Shown: positions 34,250 to 45,498 of the stretch, in pieces
How the letters are laid out: every line of letters begins with the position of its first letter
Position numbering within the stretch: the stretch's first letter is position 1
Assembly: GCF_001306035.1 (NCBI RefSeq)
Contig: NZ_LGCM01000037.1
Span: 1 to 64,000 of the forward strand
DNA from: Levilinea saccharolytica
GTDB lineage: Bacteria; Chloroflexota; Anaerolineae; Anaerolineales; Anaerolineaceae
Direction of reading: 5' to 3'
DNA length: 64,000 nt
Position numbers and translations under genes: made by a program
The notes under the pieces: generated by a model
Databases searched by the model: none
Seen by the model: only the letters and a program-made list of their open reading frames with translations
What the model was told of the DNA's origin: nothing

Positions 34250-34972
34250 TCAGGCGAACTGGCTTTTGACCTGACGGATGACCATGACCACCTTGCCCAT
34301 GATGCGCAGCCGTTCGGGGTTGTTGATGTAAATGGGCGACATGGTGGGGTTGGCAGGCTGCAGGCGGACGCGGTCGTTTTCTTTGAAGAAGTACTTCAGG
34401 GTGGTTTCATCGTTGTCATCTAACCATACGGCCACCATCTCACCATTGGCGGCCTGGTTGGCCTGGCGCAGGACGACAATGTCGCCGTCGTTGATCATGG
34501 CGTCAATCATCGAGTCGCCTTCCACTTCCAGGGCGAAAAGCTCGCTGATGTTCTCACGGGCGGGGATCAGGCTGCGGGCAATTTCCACACCGCTTTCTGG
34601 GTCGTAATAGGCCAGGTCAGAGGACGGCACGGGGATGGGCTTACCGGCGACGATGCGCCCCAGCAGGGGAACCGAGAAGAAGTCGCTGGCGGCCTGGGCG
34701 GCCTGCCGGGCCACGCGCTTGACCTCCCCCGTGAAGGAGGGGTACATGGGCCGCAGGATGCGAATGCTGCGCGAGACGTGTTGGTTGCGCTCGATGTATT
34801 TGTGCTGTTCCAAGTTTTTAAGGTAATAATCCACCAGCGAGGTGGAGGTGACCCCAATGCTGTCGCCGATTTCTCGGATGGAAGGGGAGTACCCATTTTT
34901 ATCCTGGAAGGTGGTGAGGAACTCCATGATCTTGCGGTGCCGCTCACCCAAACCTGCGCTTTTTCGTGCCAT
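34250..34972 (-). CDS. lexA: LexA repressor
   Basis: This is the SOS-response repressor and autoprotease. The 240-residue product has an N-terminal winged helix (HRKIMEFLTTFQDKNGYSPSIREIG), the cleavage site Ala109-Gly110 (RIVAGKPIPV), the catalytic Ser154 (EGDSMIDAMI) and Lys193 (ETTLKYFF). It is somewhat longer than the usual 200-210 residues owing to a longer linker between the DNA-binding and protease domains. AGGAGAGGGCT precedes the ATG. An autoregulatory operator lies upstream at 35026-35039. Confidence 0.93.
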   Translation of the reverse strand: MARKSAGLGERHRKIMEFLTTFQDKNGYSPSIREIGDSIGVTSTSLVDYYLKNLEQHKYIERNQHVSRSIRILRPMYPSFTGEVKRVARQAAQAASDFFSVPLLGRIVAGKPIPVPSSDLAYYDPESGVEIARSLIPARENISELFALEVEGDSMIDAMINDGDIVVLRQANQAANGEMVAVWLDDNDETTLKYFFKENDRVRLQPANPTMSPIYINNPERLRIMGKVVMVIRQVKSQFA

Positions 34973-35025
34973 AGCCCTCTCCTTTCAGAGGAACCTCGAT
35001 CATTTGTACTATTTATTATATTACA

Positions 35026-35039
35026 CGAACATCCGTTCT
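35026..35039. promoter_or_regulatory. Candidate LexA operator upstream of lexA
   Basis: CGAACATCCGTTCT contains GAAC-N4-GTTC, the form of the Gram-positive SOS box. It lies 54 bases upstream of the lexA start, where autoregulation is expected. Confidence 0.7.
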
Positions 35040-40343: not shown

Positions 40344-40349
40344 TATAAT
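40344..40349 (+). promoter_or_regulatory. -10 element for the NfeD/slipin pair
   Basis: TATAAT at 40344-40349 overlaps an in-frame ATG at 40348, so that ATG cannot be the start; the real start is 40408. Confidence 0.5.
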
Positions 40350-40407
40350 GATCATGGAAAGGTTTTTGCTCAAATTTGCTGCTTCCGGGTGGAAAGGCTC
40401 GGGAAAA

Positions 40408-41016
40408 ATGAATCTCCTTTTAGATCCCAATGTCGCGTATTTGCTGCTGGTGGCTGGCTCTGTCCTGGTACTGTTGGCGCTGCTTTCGCCGGGCACGGGC
40501 ATTTTGGAGGCGGCCGCTCTGGTCATTTTGGTGCTGGCGGGCTACAGCCTGGCCAGTCTGCCGATCAATATCTGGGCGCTGCTGCTCCTGGTGGGGGCGC
40601 TTTACCCCTTCTGGCTGGCGGTGCGGCGCAAAAAACAGGTTCCCTATCTGCTGCTGGCCATTGCAGCCCTGGTGGTGGGCTCGGTATTCATGTTCCGCGG
40701 GGCTGACGGTAGCCTTTCGGCGGTCCATCCGGCTTTGGCCGGCGTGGTTTCAGTGTTGGTGGTGCTGCTGCTGTGGCTGGTGGCGCGGCGCGGTCTGGAG
40801 GCTGTGGGTATTCAGCCGGCGCATTCCCTGGATCCGTTGATCGGCATGGAAGGCGAGGTGCGCGCCAGCTTTAAGGGAGATGGAGCGGTTTACGTACGCG
40901 GTGAAGAATGGACTGCGCGCTGCCCGGTGATGGTAAAGAGTGGGACGCGGGTGCGTGTGGTGGGTCGTGAGGGTTTGGTCTTGTTGGTGACGCCCGTCGA
41001 GGCAGACCCGAATTAA
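40408..41016 (+). CDS. NfeD-like protein (short form)
   Basis: The 202-residue short NfeD has four membrane helices (starting MNLLLDPNVAYLLLVAGSV, typical of NfeD) and a C-terminal OB-fold domain (IGMEGEVRASFKGDGAVYV, VRVVGREGLVLLV). It has no protease domain, unlike the long form at 8.9-10.2 kb. NfeD genes typically neighbour stomatin-like genes, as here. Confidence 0.85.
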   Translation: MNLLLDPNVAYLLLVAGSVLVLLALLSPGTGILEAAALVILVLAGYSLASLPINIWALLLLVGALYPFWLAVRRKKQVPYLLLAIAALVVGSVFMFRGADGSLSAVHPALAGVVSVLVVLLLWLVARRGLEAVGIQPAHSLDPLIGMEGEVRASFKGDGAVYVRGEEWTARCPVMVKSGTRVRVVGREGLVLLVTPVEADPN

Positions 41017-41073
41017 TCCGGTGGGCGCCCTGCGGCGCTCTGCCGGTGCACATACTCAGCAAGGAGGAGACAA

Positions 41074-41952
41074 ATGCAAGAAGGTGCGATGTCCGTATTA
41101 TGCCTGATTGGCGTGGTCGCTCTGGTATTTGTGGTGTTTTTGTCCACAGCGCTGCGCATTGTTCCCGAATATCAGCGTCTGGTCGTGTTCCGCTTGGGGC
41201 GCTGTATCGGCAGCCGTGGGCCGGGCTTGATCATCCTGATCCCCTTTATTGATCGGGCGGTCAAAGTGGACCTGCGCGAGCAAGTGCGTGAAATTCCGGC
41301 GCAGACCTCCATCACGGCCGATAACGCCCCCATCTCGATTGACTTCCTGTGGTACTACAAGGTCTTTGACCCCATGAACACCGTGCTGCAAGTGGGCAAC
41401 TTTGAACTGGCAGCCCAGGGTATTGCCACCACCACGCTGCGCGCGGTCATCGGCGGTATCATGCTGGATGGTGTGCTTTCGGAACGTGAGAAAATCAATC
41501 TGGCCCTGCGCACCCGTTTGGATGAAGTTACCGAACGTTGGGGTGTGAAAGTGACCAATGTCGAAATTCGTGAGATCATCCCTCCGCGCGACGTGCAGGA
41601 CGCGATGAACCGCCAGCTTTCGGCGGAACGTAACCGCCGCGCCGTGGTGACCGAATCCACCGGTACACGCGAAGCGGCCGTCAACGTGGCGGAAGGTCAG
41701 CGCCAGGCGGCCATTTTGCAGGCTGAAGGTGAAAAGCAGGCCCAGCTGCTGCGCGCTGAGGGTTACTCGGCGGCTCTGGAGCGCATCTTCTCGGTGGCGG
41801 GCAAGATTGACCACCAGACGATCACCCTGCAGTACTTTGAGACCTTGAAGACCATGTCGGCCAACCCGGCTACCAAGTTCGTTTTCCCGTTGGAATTCAC
41901 CTCCATGCTGACGGATTTCATCCGCGTTCGTGAGGAAAAGAAATCAGCCTAG
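41074..41952 (+). CDS. Slipin/stomatin-like SPFH (Band 7) membrane protein
   Basis: The 292-residue product has one N-terminal membrane helix, then a Band 7 domain (RIVPEYQRLVVFRLGRCIG, GPGLIILIPFIDRAVKVDLR, VREIPAQTSITADNAPISID) and the coiled-coil region with ERNRRAVVTESTG and AEGEKQAQLLRAEG. Such proteins form large oligomeric rings at the membrane and work with NfeD proteases. AAGGAGGAG precedes the ATG. A strong terminator follows. Confidence 0.92.
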   Translation: MQEGAMSVLCLIGVVALVFVVFLSTALRIVPEYQRLVVFRLGRCIGSRGPGLIILIPFIDRAVKVDLREQVREIPAQTSITADNAPISIDFLWYYKVFDPMNTVLQVGNFELAAQGIATTTLRAVIGGIMLDGVLSEREKINLALRTRLDEVTERWGVKVTNVEIREIIPPRDVQDAMNRQLSAERNRRAVVTESTGTREAAVNVAEGQRQAAILQAEGEKQAQLLRAEGYSAALERIFSVAGKIDHQTITLQYFETLKTMSANPATKFVFPLEFTSMLTDFIRVREEKKSA

Positions 41953-42540: not shown

Positions 42541-42569
42541 TTGACAAACTAGAATATCTGTTCTATAAT
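42541..42569 (+). promoter_or_regulatory. Perfect sigma-70 type promoter
   Basis: TTGACA (42541-42546), 17-base spacer and TATAAT (42564-42569), the ideal form. A LexA-like box fills the spacer and another lies just downstream. Confidence 0.85.
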
Positions 42570-42592
42570 GTGATCAATTAGAACAAATATTC
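42552..42592. promoter_or_regulatory. Two LexA-like boxes over the promoter
   Basis: GAATATCTGTTC (42552-42563, in the spacer) and GAACAAATATTC (42581-42592) both fit GAAY-N4-RTTC, the pattern seen upstream of lexA (GAACATCCGTTC). They would block the promoter and its start site. Each has one mismatched half-site, so binding strength is uncertain. Confidence 0.55.
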
Positions 42593-42622
42593 AGTTTTAC
42601 CCTGCCTGAAAGGAGAATTGTC

Positions 42623-43375
42623 ATGAATCTCACCGGTACCCGCTCTGGTCGTTTTTCGCCCTCCCAGCTGTTTCGGAATGTGTCGGTCAACCCATCGGTC
42701 GTATTTGGGTTGATCATCCTCACAGCCCTGGGCGCGTTCGAGATGTTCAATTATTCCACCACCGATTACGCCCTGCGCGACCTGTTGGGCAATTTGAAGT
42801 TCGCCGGGATTCATTGGGCAACCATCCTGGCAGTGGCCTTCTGCGGCATTGACTTTGCCGGGATTGCGCGCCTGTTCACCCCCGAACAGGGCAACGAAGA
42901 ACCCAAAGAGGTCTGGTATTTGTTCGGCGCCTGGTTGTTGGCCGCCACGATGAACGCCATTCTGACCTGGTGGGGCGTTTCGATGGCGATTGCCACGCAC
43001 AATGTTCAGAGTGCGGCTGTCATGGACTCGAAGATCATCACCAACATTGTGCCCGCGTTCGTGGCCATCATGGTGTGGGTGATCCGCATCCTCATCATCG
43101 GCACGATTTCGGTCGCCGGAGACCGCCTGGTCTGGGGGGCGCAGCGCCGCGGAGTGAGCCGCCGCGCACCCGCCAGCCTGCCCGCCACCAGCCGCACGGT
43201 CTCGACGCCCTTGGGCACCAGCACCCCCATGCCGCGGCCCACCTTCTCCCGCGCAGTGGAAGCCGCCGCTTCAGCCCGACCTGAACCCACCTATCACAGC
43301 GTTTCGGCCAGCTCGCGGGCGGTTCCTCGACCCAGCGAAAACAACAGCGGGTCTTCAGCTCCCCGGCGGTTCTAA
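42623..43375 (+). CDS. Unknown membrane protein, candidate SOS-controlled gene
   Basis: The 250-residue product has about four membrane helices (VVFGLIILTALGAF, AGIHWATILAVAFCGI, WYLFGAWLLAATMNAILTWW and IVPAFVAIMVWVIRILIIG) and a basic, Ser/Pro/Arg-rich disordered tail from residue 170. I do not recognise a family. AAAGGAG precedes ATG 42623. A perfect promoter with two LexA-like boxes precedes it, so induction on DNA damage is plausible. The layout, a small membrane body with an unstructured cytoplasmic tail, could suit a damage-induced cell-division or DNA-transfer factor, but that is speculation. Confidence 0.6.
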   Translation: MNLTGTRSGRFSPSQLFRNVSVNPSVVFGLIILTALGAFEMFNYSTTDYALRDLLGNLKFAGIHWATILAVAFCGIDFAGIARLFTPEQGNEEPKEVWYLFGAWLLAATMNAILTWWGVSMAIATHNVQSAAVMDSKIITNIVPAFVAIMVWVIRILIIGTISVAGDRLVWGAQRRGVSRRAPASLPATSRTVSTPLGTSTPMPRPTFSRAVEAAASARPEPTYHSVSASSRAVPRPSENNSGSSAPRRF

Positions 43376-43441: not shown

Positions 43442-44821
43442 TTAAGCCGAGGGGTTGGGCGGGCCGCTGAGCGGCAGCCACACGCAGAAGGTGGTGCCCT
43501 GACCTTCGCGGGAACTCACCTCAATGCGCCCGCCGTGGCTGCGCGTGATCCAGTTGGCGATGGACAGCCCCAAACCAAAGCCCGTGCCGGAAGCGCGCGT
43601 GCGCGATTTTTCGGCGCGGTAGAAGCGCTCGAAAATGTGCGGCAGATCTGCGGCGGGGATTCCGGGACCGGTATCGGTGACCAGGATTTGGGCCATCTGA
43701 TCGGATTTGCGCAGCGAGAGGATAATTTCGCCCCCGTTGGGGGTGTATTGGATGGCGTTGCCGCCTAAATTCAACAGCACCTGCTTGATGCGGTCAAAAT
43801 CCGCCACAATCTCCACCTGATCAATTTCGGCAATGCGCAAGCTCACCCGATCCCCGGCGATGGTGCGCATTTGCTGGAAGACTTCCAACAGAATGGTGTC
43901 TAACGAGACAGGCATGAGGTTCAGCGGCAGCCGCCCGGATTCGGCCTGGGCCAGGATGAGCAGATCCCCGACCAGGCGGGTGAGGCGGTCCACTTCCGAT
44001 TCAATACCAGTTAATGATTCTTCGTCCAGCTCCTTCATGCGGCGCATGAGCCCGACATTGCCGCGGATAACGGTCAACGGTGTGCGCAGCTCGTGGGAGA
44101 CATCCGCCAGGAAGCGGCGCTGGCTGGTGAAGAGCTTTTCCAGGCGTTCCAGCACCTGATTGAAGGAGGTGATGAGGGCGCCAACTTCGTCATCGCCTAC
44201 ACCTGTCATGGGGATGCGGCGCTGTAAGTCGTCGGCGCGGGTGATTTGGGCCGCCACGCGCGTGACGGTGGCCAGGGGCGCCAGGGTTTGACCGATGACC
44301 AGCCAGGCCGAAAGTCCCGAAAAGACGAGTCCCAACGCCAGCACCAGCACCAGGATGAGCGATAGGGTGGAGAGGATCATATCCACCAGGGTGATGTTCT
44401 GGCTGATTTGCAGCACGCCCACCGGGCCGCGAATGGTTTTCAGGGGGATGGAGAGGACGCGCAGGCTTTTGCCGGATTGGCGGATGGTTTGATAGCGGGG
44501 CTCATCGGCCCAGCGCCCGGCGTTATCCAGCGGGTCGCGCTGGGTGGGGGGCTTGGCCAGGAGCAATTTGCGGTCGGTGCTCCACACCTGAAATTCGACC
44601 GTTTCCGTGGTGCGCAGATCCACCAAACCGCGCGGGTCGAAGGTGTTAGCGGTGTTCATCCGCAGGCGGGAGATGATGGCAGTCGAGTTTTGGACCAGGG
44701 TGCGGTCCACCTGGTCGAGCAGGATCACGTTCACCAGACCGTACACCAGGGCTGAAACCAGCAGCATGGTGCCCCCCAGCAGGCTGGTGTACAGCAGGGT
44801 CAGGCGTAAACGCAGCGACAT
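43442..44821 (-). CDS. Sensor histidine kinase
   Basis: The 459-residue membrane kinase has helix 1 (residues 8-35), an extracytoplasmic sensor region (36-145), helix 2 (about 147-176), HAMP (177-230), HisKA with His243 (FLADVSHELRTPLTVIRGN) and an HATPase with NIQ-type N-box (NLGGNAIQYTPNGG), DTGPGIPAADLPHIFERFYR and GFGLGLSIAN. Its ATG overlaps the stop of the upstream regulator gene by one base (TAATG), so the two are coupled. The stimulus is unknown. Confidence 0.93.
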   Translation of the reverse strand: MSLRLRLTLLYTSLLGGTMLLVSALVYGLVNVILLDQVDRTLVQNSTAIISRLRMNTANTFDPRGLVDLRTTETVEFQVWSTDRKLLLAKPPTQRDPLDNAGRWADEPRYQTIRQSGKSLRVLSIPLKTIRGPVGVLQISQNITLVDMILSTLSLILVLVLALGLVFSGLSAWLVIGQTLAPLATVTRVAAQITRADDLQRRIPMTGVGDDEVGALITSFNQVLERLEKLFTSQRRFLADVSHELRTPLTVIRGNVGLMRRMKELDEESLTGIESEVDRLTRLVGDLLILAQAESGRLPLNLMPVSLDTILLEVFQQMRTIAGDRVSLRIAEIDQVEIVADFDRIKQVLLNLGGNAIQYTPNGGEIILSLRKSDQMAQILVTDTGPGIPAADLPHIFERFYRAEKSRTRASGTGFGLGLSIANWITRSHGGRIEVSSREGQGTTFCVWLPLSGPPNPSA

Positions 44822-45498
44822 TATGCCGTCTCGCGCATGACATACCCCACACCGCGCACGGTGTAGATCAGCCGCGACTCCTTATCCCCTTCCAACTTCT
44901 GGCGCAGGTAGCGGATGTACACATCCAAGACGTTGCTTTCGCCGCCAAAGTCGTAGCCCCACACGCGGTCGAAGATCATTTCGCGGGTGAGCACCTGGCG
45001 GGGGTGGCGCATGAACAGCTCCAGCAGATCGTATTCCTTGGCGGTGAGCGAAATGATGCGCCCGTTGCGTTCGGCCTGGCGGGTGGAGGTATCCAGATTG
45101 AGATCCATAAAGTTCAGCACCGGCGTACGGTCTTGCTGGGTGCGGCGCAGCAGCGCGCGAATGCGGGCGGTCAGCTCATCCAACTGGAAAGGTTTAACCA
45201 CGTAGTCATCGGCGCCGGCGTCCAGGCCCTGCACACGGTCGTGAAGGGTGTCTTTGGCGGTCAGCATCAGCACGGGCACATTGCTGAGGGCGCGCAGACG
45301 CTGGCAGACTTCCAGCCCATCCATGCCGGGCAGCATCCAATCCAGGATGACCAGATCGGGCTGCCGGTCTCGCGCCAGGGCCAGGCCGCTCTCGCCGTCT
45401 AAGGCTGCGTCCACCTGGTAGCCCTCATAGGCCAGCGAGCGGCGCAGCAGCTTCACAATGGCTTCATCATCCTCAATGATCAAAACTTTCTCATTCAT
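44821..45498 (-). CDS. OmpR/PhoB-family response regulator
   Basis: The 225-residue product has a receiver domain with phospho-acceptor Asp53 ([15 protein letters not shown]), Thr in MLTAKD and Lys in VKPFQLDEL, and a C-terminal winged helix ([45 protein letters not shown]). It is the transcriptional partner of the downstream kinase. Confidence 0.95.

Follow-up and report, generated by a model that had tools for sequence, protein, structure and literature searches.

The window, the whole stretch of DNA that we analyzed, comprises 64,000 nucleotides of Levilinea saccharolytica (contig NZ_LGCM01000037.1, positions 1 to 64,000); within the 4.23-Mb genome, this contig is numbered C11. On its plus strand, a gene at 42623..43375 encodes an orphan membrane protein of 250 residues with four predicted helices, and 7.6 kb from it the minus strand carries lexA (34250..34972). 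Just upstream of the membrane gene, at 40348-41952, are genes for an NfeD-type protein and then a Band-7/SPFH protein, a familiar membrane pair. A histidine kinase and a response regulator (43442-45498) are encoded convergently with the membrane gene.

The membrane gene has a promoter that can be read directly from the sequence. Its -35 element, TTGACA (42541..42546, plus strand), which was also part of our genome pattern searches, and its -10 element, TATAAT (42564..42569, plus strand), are separated by a spacer of 17 bp (42547-42563). In the spacer lies a putative LexA operator (operator 1), the 16-bp near-palindrome TAGAATATCTGTTCTA (42550..42565, plus strand), whose core, GAATATCTGTTC, occupies 42552-42563 and whose end is overlapped by the -10 element. 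A second LexA-like operator (operator 2), GAACAAATATTC, lies 29 bp downstream of the first (42581..42592, plus strand). Both GAATATCTGTTC and GAACAAATATTC differ from GAAC-N4-GTTC by one mismatch each. A ribosome-binding site, AAGGAG (42610..42615, plus strand, assigned by eye), precedes the ATG start codon at 42623. Upstream comparison with the sister species found operator 1 identical and operator 2 unchanged. The first-pass annotation had described TTGACA-N17-TATAAT with one box in the spacer and another after the -10 element, and a direct check of the sequence bore this out. It had also described the boxes as bracketing the promoter, which they do not, since the first sits within the spacer and the second downstream of the -10 element.

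Conservation of the operators upstream of the membrane gene

Boxes with at most one mismatch to the palindrome are about as frequent in the 64-kb window as chance predicts (24 against 19.44 expected, with 18 of 100 shuffles reaching 24), so the case for the operators has to rest on their position and conservation. The genome-wide scan for GAAC-N4-GTTC that had been proposed as a check gave 45 perfect palindromes (control, 13). Of the 34 distinct places inspected, 30 fall within called reading frames and 4 outside, so that the bare palindrome is a poor predictor when it is not joined to a promoter. The pattern TTGAC-N5..8-GAAYNNNNRTTC-N2..6-AAT was present at three sites in the 4.23-Mb genome versus none for the control; the three genes concerned are the membrane gene, a GyrI-like gene, and a TIGR03916-type radical-SAM gene. 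A broader -35/box/-10 pattern was matched in 92 of 101 genomes, that of L. saccharolytica included, and a reversed control pattern gave one match in all 101 together.

Of these 101 genomes, 80 (again counting that of L. saccharolytica) encode a homologue of the membrane protein, as do 51 of the 64 of high quality, and a second genome collection contributed a further 23 loci. We compared 68 upstream regions, consisting of 27 of the 30 loci of the first set (without L020, a duplicate, and the cut loci L033 and L043), 19 of the 23 of the second (without the duplicates L046, L047, and L049 and the cut locus L055), and 22 further places from the first set, chosen for distance. All 68 differ in sequence, and some perhaps come from closely related genomes. 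The locus L030 has a broken frame; its upstream region is among the 68, and its product is absent from the protein alignment.

Of the 68 regions, 66 contain a box in which 7 or all 8 core bases match (shuffles: mean 4.2, maximum 9), and in 34 the core is perfect. With the threshold lowered to 6 of 8, a box lies between -35-like and -10-like elements in 63 regions; a stricter form of this promoter pattern is present in 58. The box is flanked by TA on both outer sides in 54 of 68, giving TAGAAY-N4-GTTCTA running into the -10 element. A pair of boxes, each with no more than one core mismatch and variably spaced, is present in 26 of 68. A matrix trained only on 46 lexA boxes placed 61 of the 68 regions above the 99th percentile of the shuffles; on the better strand, the two window boxes scored 12.3 and 13.2, against 10.2 for that percentile. 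It is the comparison with relatives that makes these putative operators real, and it contradicts a chance resemblance.

lexA, recA, and a putative LexA regulon

The lexA product matches TIGR00498 with 159 bits (cut-off, 111) as well as PF01726 and PF00717, and by eye it has the AG cleavage site and the catalytic Ser and Lys of a self-cleaving LexA. The box upstream of lexA, GAACATCCGTTC (35027..35038, minus strand), had been correctly recognized earlier; it lies in the 17-bp spacer of the minus-strand lexA promoter. A weak second box, GTACAAATGATC (34998..35009, minus strand), with 6 of 8 core bases, lies 29 bp from the first. We collected upstream regions from 46 of the lexA loci found in the genome search. 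All 46 have a box, which is perfect in 41 and placed in the promoter pattern in 38. The outer flanks of the lexA boxes are most often CA..GT (16 of 46), in contrast to the TA..TA that predominates at the membrane gene. All 51 high-quality genomes that carry the membrane gene also have lexA, and the sole high-quality genome without lexA (G069) is also without the membrane gene.

The recA gene, included to serve as a negative control, proved positive. A promoter-embedded box, usually GAACAnnTGTRC, was found in 14 of 26 recA loci and was absent from the other 12; these boxes emerged once one core mismatch was allowed at any position. The set comprised 26 of 30 loci, with L180, L194, L196, and L197 left out because their flanks were cut or taken as cut. 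The recA promoter of L. saccharolytica itself reads TTGACC..GAACAAATGTAC..TATAAT.

A radical-SAM repair gene has an upstream box in 8 of 30 loci, including those of L. saccharolytica and its sister species. The L. saccharolytica gene is assigned to the TIGR03916 type with a score of 267 bits, short of the 343.5 cut-off; we equate this type with COG4277. For the UDG pair COG1573-COG4277 of Bacteroidetes, one study reports evidence of SOS-type regulation (PMC8565304).

We also fetched 40 promoter-box sites, from among the matches listed, that were otherwise unexplained, and named their first genes by eye. These genes were RadA-like at 10 sites, LuxR-type at 9, GyrI-like at 4, Fer4_12 radical-SAM at 4, and AAA/FtsK-like ATPase at 3, and at the remaining 10 something else or nothing callable. 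The RadA-like gene has RadA as its best library match, with an E value of 0.004 and far below the cut-off. In the loci that were read further, it precedes a gene for a family-B DNA polymerase, followed in G043 by an SRAP gene. Relatives such as L327, L328, L329, and L330 have an operon of the RadA-like gene, a gene for a protein of about 135 residues, and the family-B polymerase gene, and this operon is sometimes preceded by a LuxR-type gene. The RadA-like/polymerase operon, apparently SOS controlled, may be a counterpart of mutasome cassettes.

Taken as a set, the patterns look like a LexA regulon of the GAAC-N4-GTTC class, a reading that is well supported by the sequence comparisons. The earlier proposal that the membrane gene is an SOS gene under LexA draws strong support from this comparative evidence, since its putative operator is shared with lexA, recA, and repair genes. 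We consider it very probable that the membrane gene is under LexA control.

Features of the membrane protein

The four helices are predicted at residues 24-55, 65-85, 94-125, and 136-175 in an AlphaFold model of modest confidence (mean pLDDT 65.7, pTM 0.45). They are followed by a C-terminal tail (43148-43372), modeled with low confidence and probably disordered, which includes the motif RPEPTYH. An alignment of 45 members has 48 invariant columns. The majority fall within or close to the predicted helices, and the tail has four. These four are the E, P, Y, and H of EPxYH (consensus RPEPTYH), present in 45 of 45 members amid otherwise variable sequence. This conservation suggests that the tail has a binding partner, probably a cytoplasmic one.

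Searches of Pfam, NCBIfam, PHROGs, and PADLOC returned nothing usable for the window protein, including no match to a holin family in Pfam, NCBIfam, or PHROGs, and comparison of the modest AlphaFold model with PDB folds gave no match at an E value of 0.001 or below. Weak fold matches to helix bundles (taste receptors, Orai, and others) were set aside as generic. Two weak PHROG matches of homologues, one of L058 to a virion protein family (E value 3e-4, in the tail) and one of L067 to a superinfection-exclusion-like family (E value 9e-3), were not used.

In a sample of 301 genomes of the phylum, the family was present in 26, all of them within the class Anaerolineae. A non-exhaustive clustering of the stretches compared revealed no prophage or tailocin genes near the gene. 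Homologues of the histidine kinase and the response regulator occur in 12 and 11, respectively, of 26 compared stretches around the gene.

Association with an SLT lytic transglycosylase

The candidate partner of the membrane protein is a lytic transglycosylase whose sequence includes an SLT domain (PF01464) and a hydrophobic N-terminal segment. In 25 of the 30 best SLT loci, its gene lies directly downstream of the membrane gene, on the same strand and with 45-878 bp between the matched parts; this fraction may overstate the linkage, since the SLT query came from a locus, L064, where the two genes adjoin. As for the other five, G092 is without the membrane gene, G062 has its SLT gene on another contig, and the remaining three matches begin no more than about 200 bp into a contig. 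The order of genes in G089 is lexA, then divergently a methyladenine glycosylase gene, the membrane gene, and the SLT gene. G076 has the same order (its glycosylase named by eye) plus one reading frame between lexA and the glycosylase gene.

Within the family Anaerolineaceae, to which L. saccharolytica belongs, the SLT gene is in most cases distant from the membrane gene or located on a different contig, G035 being an exception. The window has no SLT gene adjacent to the membrane gene; the L. saccharolytica copy, whose product has an SLT domain, is on contig C5. Its promoter, TTGAAT-AAATAGAACAAATATAC-TATAAT, is identical in the sister species, and its putative operator, TAGAACAAATATACTA, is degenerate in one half. 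Such unlinked SLT genes have TAGAAY-N7-YTA upstream in 20 of 20 fetched regions (shuffles: mean 0.24, maximum 4), a pattern that was picked after the SLT sites had been seen, and -35-like and -10-like elements surround it in 19 of the 20. The second half of these boxes is often GTGC or TAC in place of GTTC, and the strict core flagged 15 of 20.

In the same family, 49 genomes have the membrane gene and 43 of these also have the SLT gene, which is found in 0 of the 12 genomes without the membrane gene. This co-occurrence has a P value of about 1e-8, or about 5e-6 if two genomes left unassigned (G047 and G049, which have no membrane gene and one weak unlisted match each) are counted against it; the matches were classified by hand, from a query range ending near 120-125 or 161-162 and a frame of at most 275 residues. 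The genomes with the membrane gene and no SLT gene (G006, G023, G024, G033, G036, and G051) are all 64-88% complete.

A viral homologue adjacent to a holin gene

A single viral homologue of the membrane protein was found. It has 166 residues, is 49% identical in the matched part, and is without the C-terminal tail. On the phage contig (IMGVR_UViG_3300027917_002087), it lies directly behind a holin gene of PF09682/phrog_608 (superfamily 6). Downstream are an HNH gene, a gene for another membrane protein, a terminase-like gene, and a portal-like gene; the last two were named by eye, and the terminase-like protein has no library match. The other membrane protein (L352:5858-6742) has 295 residues and likewise no library match. 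The viral homologue itself has no library match, PF09682 included, and the window protein also does not match PF09682.

A predicted SOS-induced envelope module

We propose the following mechanism. LexA dimers would bind the GAAC-N4-GTTC-type operator in the -35/-10 spacer, the second site near the start point would also be occupied, and LexA on these operators would block RNA polymerase. DNA damage would then lead to self-cleavage of LexA and switch the membrane gene on. The four-helix membrane protein would act together with the extracytoplasmic SLT transglycosylase, itself under a like operator, and the pair would form an SOS-induced module that cuts or remodels peptidoglycan. The envelope action that we infer would be an opening of the wall or lysis rather than a simple block of division, and the cell would probably alter or open its own envelope upon DNA damage. 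With no recognized domain or fold in the membrane protein, the proposed envelope action rests on its partner and one phage homologue.

An SOS-induced envelope module that includes the SLT enzyme is probable in our judgment. A LexA-repressed SOS promoter combined with a membrane protein/SLT envelope module is the best explanation overall, and reasonably probable as a whole. The suggestion in the first-pass annotation of a damage-response membrane factor fits this explanation. The alternative offered alongside it, a division inhibitor, found nothing specific in its favor, given the four helices, the wall-cutting partner, and the viral homologue behind a holin gene.

The strongest competing reading is a functional special case of the best explanation, namely, an SOS lysis module. 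Here the membrane protein would resemble a holin or a holin partner, the SLT enzyme would take the part of an endolysin, and a subset of damaged cells would be opened and their contents released. Consistent with lysis, the only viral homologue found sits directly behind a holin gene, and the partner cuts the wall and bears a hydrophobic segment at its N terminus. In other bacteria, phage-type endolysins are known to lyse damaged cells (PMC4834629, PMC5589764). However, the viral evidence is a single phage contig, and no match to the membrane protein was found in 50,697 phage and 72,556 plasmid records. Since a holin is already present in that phage, its homologue may serve something else. A suicidal function retained by most of an order would also be unusual. 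The RPEPTYH tail adds a further objection, as we know of no counterpart to it in holins. We regard such a lysis module as doubtful, and outright lysis as the action of the pair is similarly a minority expectation. Tentatively, one may picture a chromosomal, non-prophage SOS module for lysis or wall opening that is kept in most of the order and turns damage into a controlled opening or remodeling of the envelope. It would consist of the four-helix protein, akin to a protein encoded at a phage holin locus, and the lytic transglycosylase, both repressed by LexA. If true, such a module would serve DNA release, vesicles, or kin benefit.

Less likely is an SOS division inhibitor, in which the membrane protein would block the divisome during repair and the SLT enzyme would prevent the septal wall from closing. 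The predicted SOS control and the membrane location agree with this reading, and membrane-bound division inhibitors, YneA and SosA among them, are frequent in SOS regulons. The protein nevertheless has four predicted helices rather than one, its partner cuts the wall, its viral homologue sits beside a holin gene, and it matches no known inhibitor in Pfam or NCBIfam. These points make a division inhibitor rather improbable.

The operator might instead belong to another regulator, e.g., the convergent two-component system at 43442-45498. Homologues of its kinase and response regulator accompany the gene in nearly half of the compared stretches (12 and 11 of 26). The outer TA..TA flanks differ from those of the lexA boxes, so a second regulator is conceivable, and boxes are found at recA in 14 of 26 loci and at the radical-SAM gene in 8 of 30, not in all, which counts against LexA control. 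However, the operator is common to recA, lexA, the DNA polymerase operon, and the repair gene, and its position in the spacer fits a repressor; we consider another regulator very unlikely. Finally, that two one-mismatch boxes lie by chance near a strong promoter is a negligible prospect, since the order-wide conservation of the operator outweighs the 24 boxes, against 19.4 expected, in the window.

Comparison with known systems

The regulation itself, as predicted here, is that of an ordinary SOS operator of a known class. The GAAC-N4-GTTC class of LexA is known from Firmicutes and Actinobacteria (PMC3323433). The putative regulon resembles that class in its core palindrome, a repressor of the TIGR00498 family, an operator placed over the promoter, and the sharing of the operator with lexA and recA. 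It differs in that the 16-bp form, TAGAAYANNTGTKCTA, overlaps the -10 element, the lexA boxes have other flanks, and at recA and the SLT gene the second half of the box is degenerate.

YneA, SosA, SidA, and DivS are small single-pass membrane proteins. The likeness to them lies in a membrane protein produced on LexA derepression, which is putative in our case. Unlike them, the window protein has four predicted helices, a long tail with RPEPTYH, and a lytic transglycosylase as partner, and it had no match to any of the four in library searches.

Explosive cell lysis and the maltocin endolysin share with the proposed module SOS control, a membrane protein combined with a wall-cutting enzyme, and, through the viral homologue, the neighborhood of a holin. 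Here, in contrast, the stretches compared were without prophage or tailocin genes, the distribution is nearly order-wide, and the transglycosylase comes with a hydrophobic N-terminal segment of its own. Holin superfamily 6 (PF09682) adjoins the viral homologue, yet neither that homologue nor the window protein matches it. The arrangement also recalls a holin-endolysin cassette, as the gene lies beside that of a peptidoglycan-cutting enzyme in 25 of the 30 best SLT loci, a query-biased figure, although not in the window.

SOS envelope effectors have so far been known only piecemeal. Among the open-licence matches listed for LexA/SOS in Chloroflexi and Anaerolineae, there was no paper on this regulon; within that literature, what is new is the LexA regulon of these bacteria, the family of orphan effectors, and the pairing of that family with a transglycosylase. 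Our comparisons give a sequence-level outline of an Anaerolineales LexA regulon, with a two-gene envelope module among its predicted outputs. The family is present in 80 of the 101 genomes examined, has a candidate partner that cuts the wall, and has a viral relative beside a holin; this makes an SOS effect on the envelope testable with two genes.

Further operator-like sites

Three other sites deserve mention. A gene for a GyrI-like protein (PF06445) has a promoter-embedded operator, TAGAATATATGTTCTA (G000:C12:140696-140724; L070). A near-operator, TAAAACATAAGTTCTA (G000:C6:34228-34243; L077), lies about 85 bp upstream of gyrB. An operator-like box, TAGAACATCTGTTCAG (G000:C9:94093-94108; L080), is located in a stretch of low third-position G+C near a reading frame that by eye is excisionase-like, and it possibly marks an SOS-controlled mobile element.
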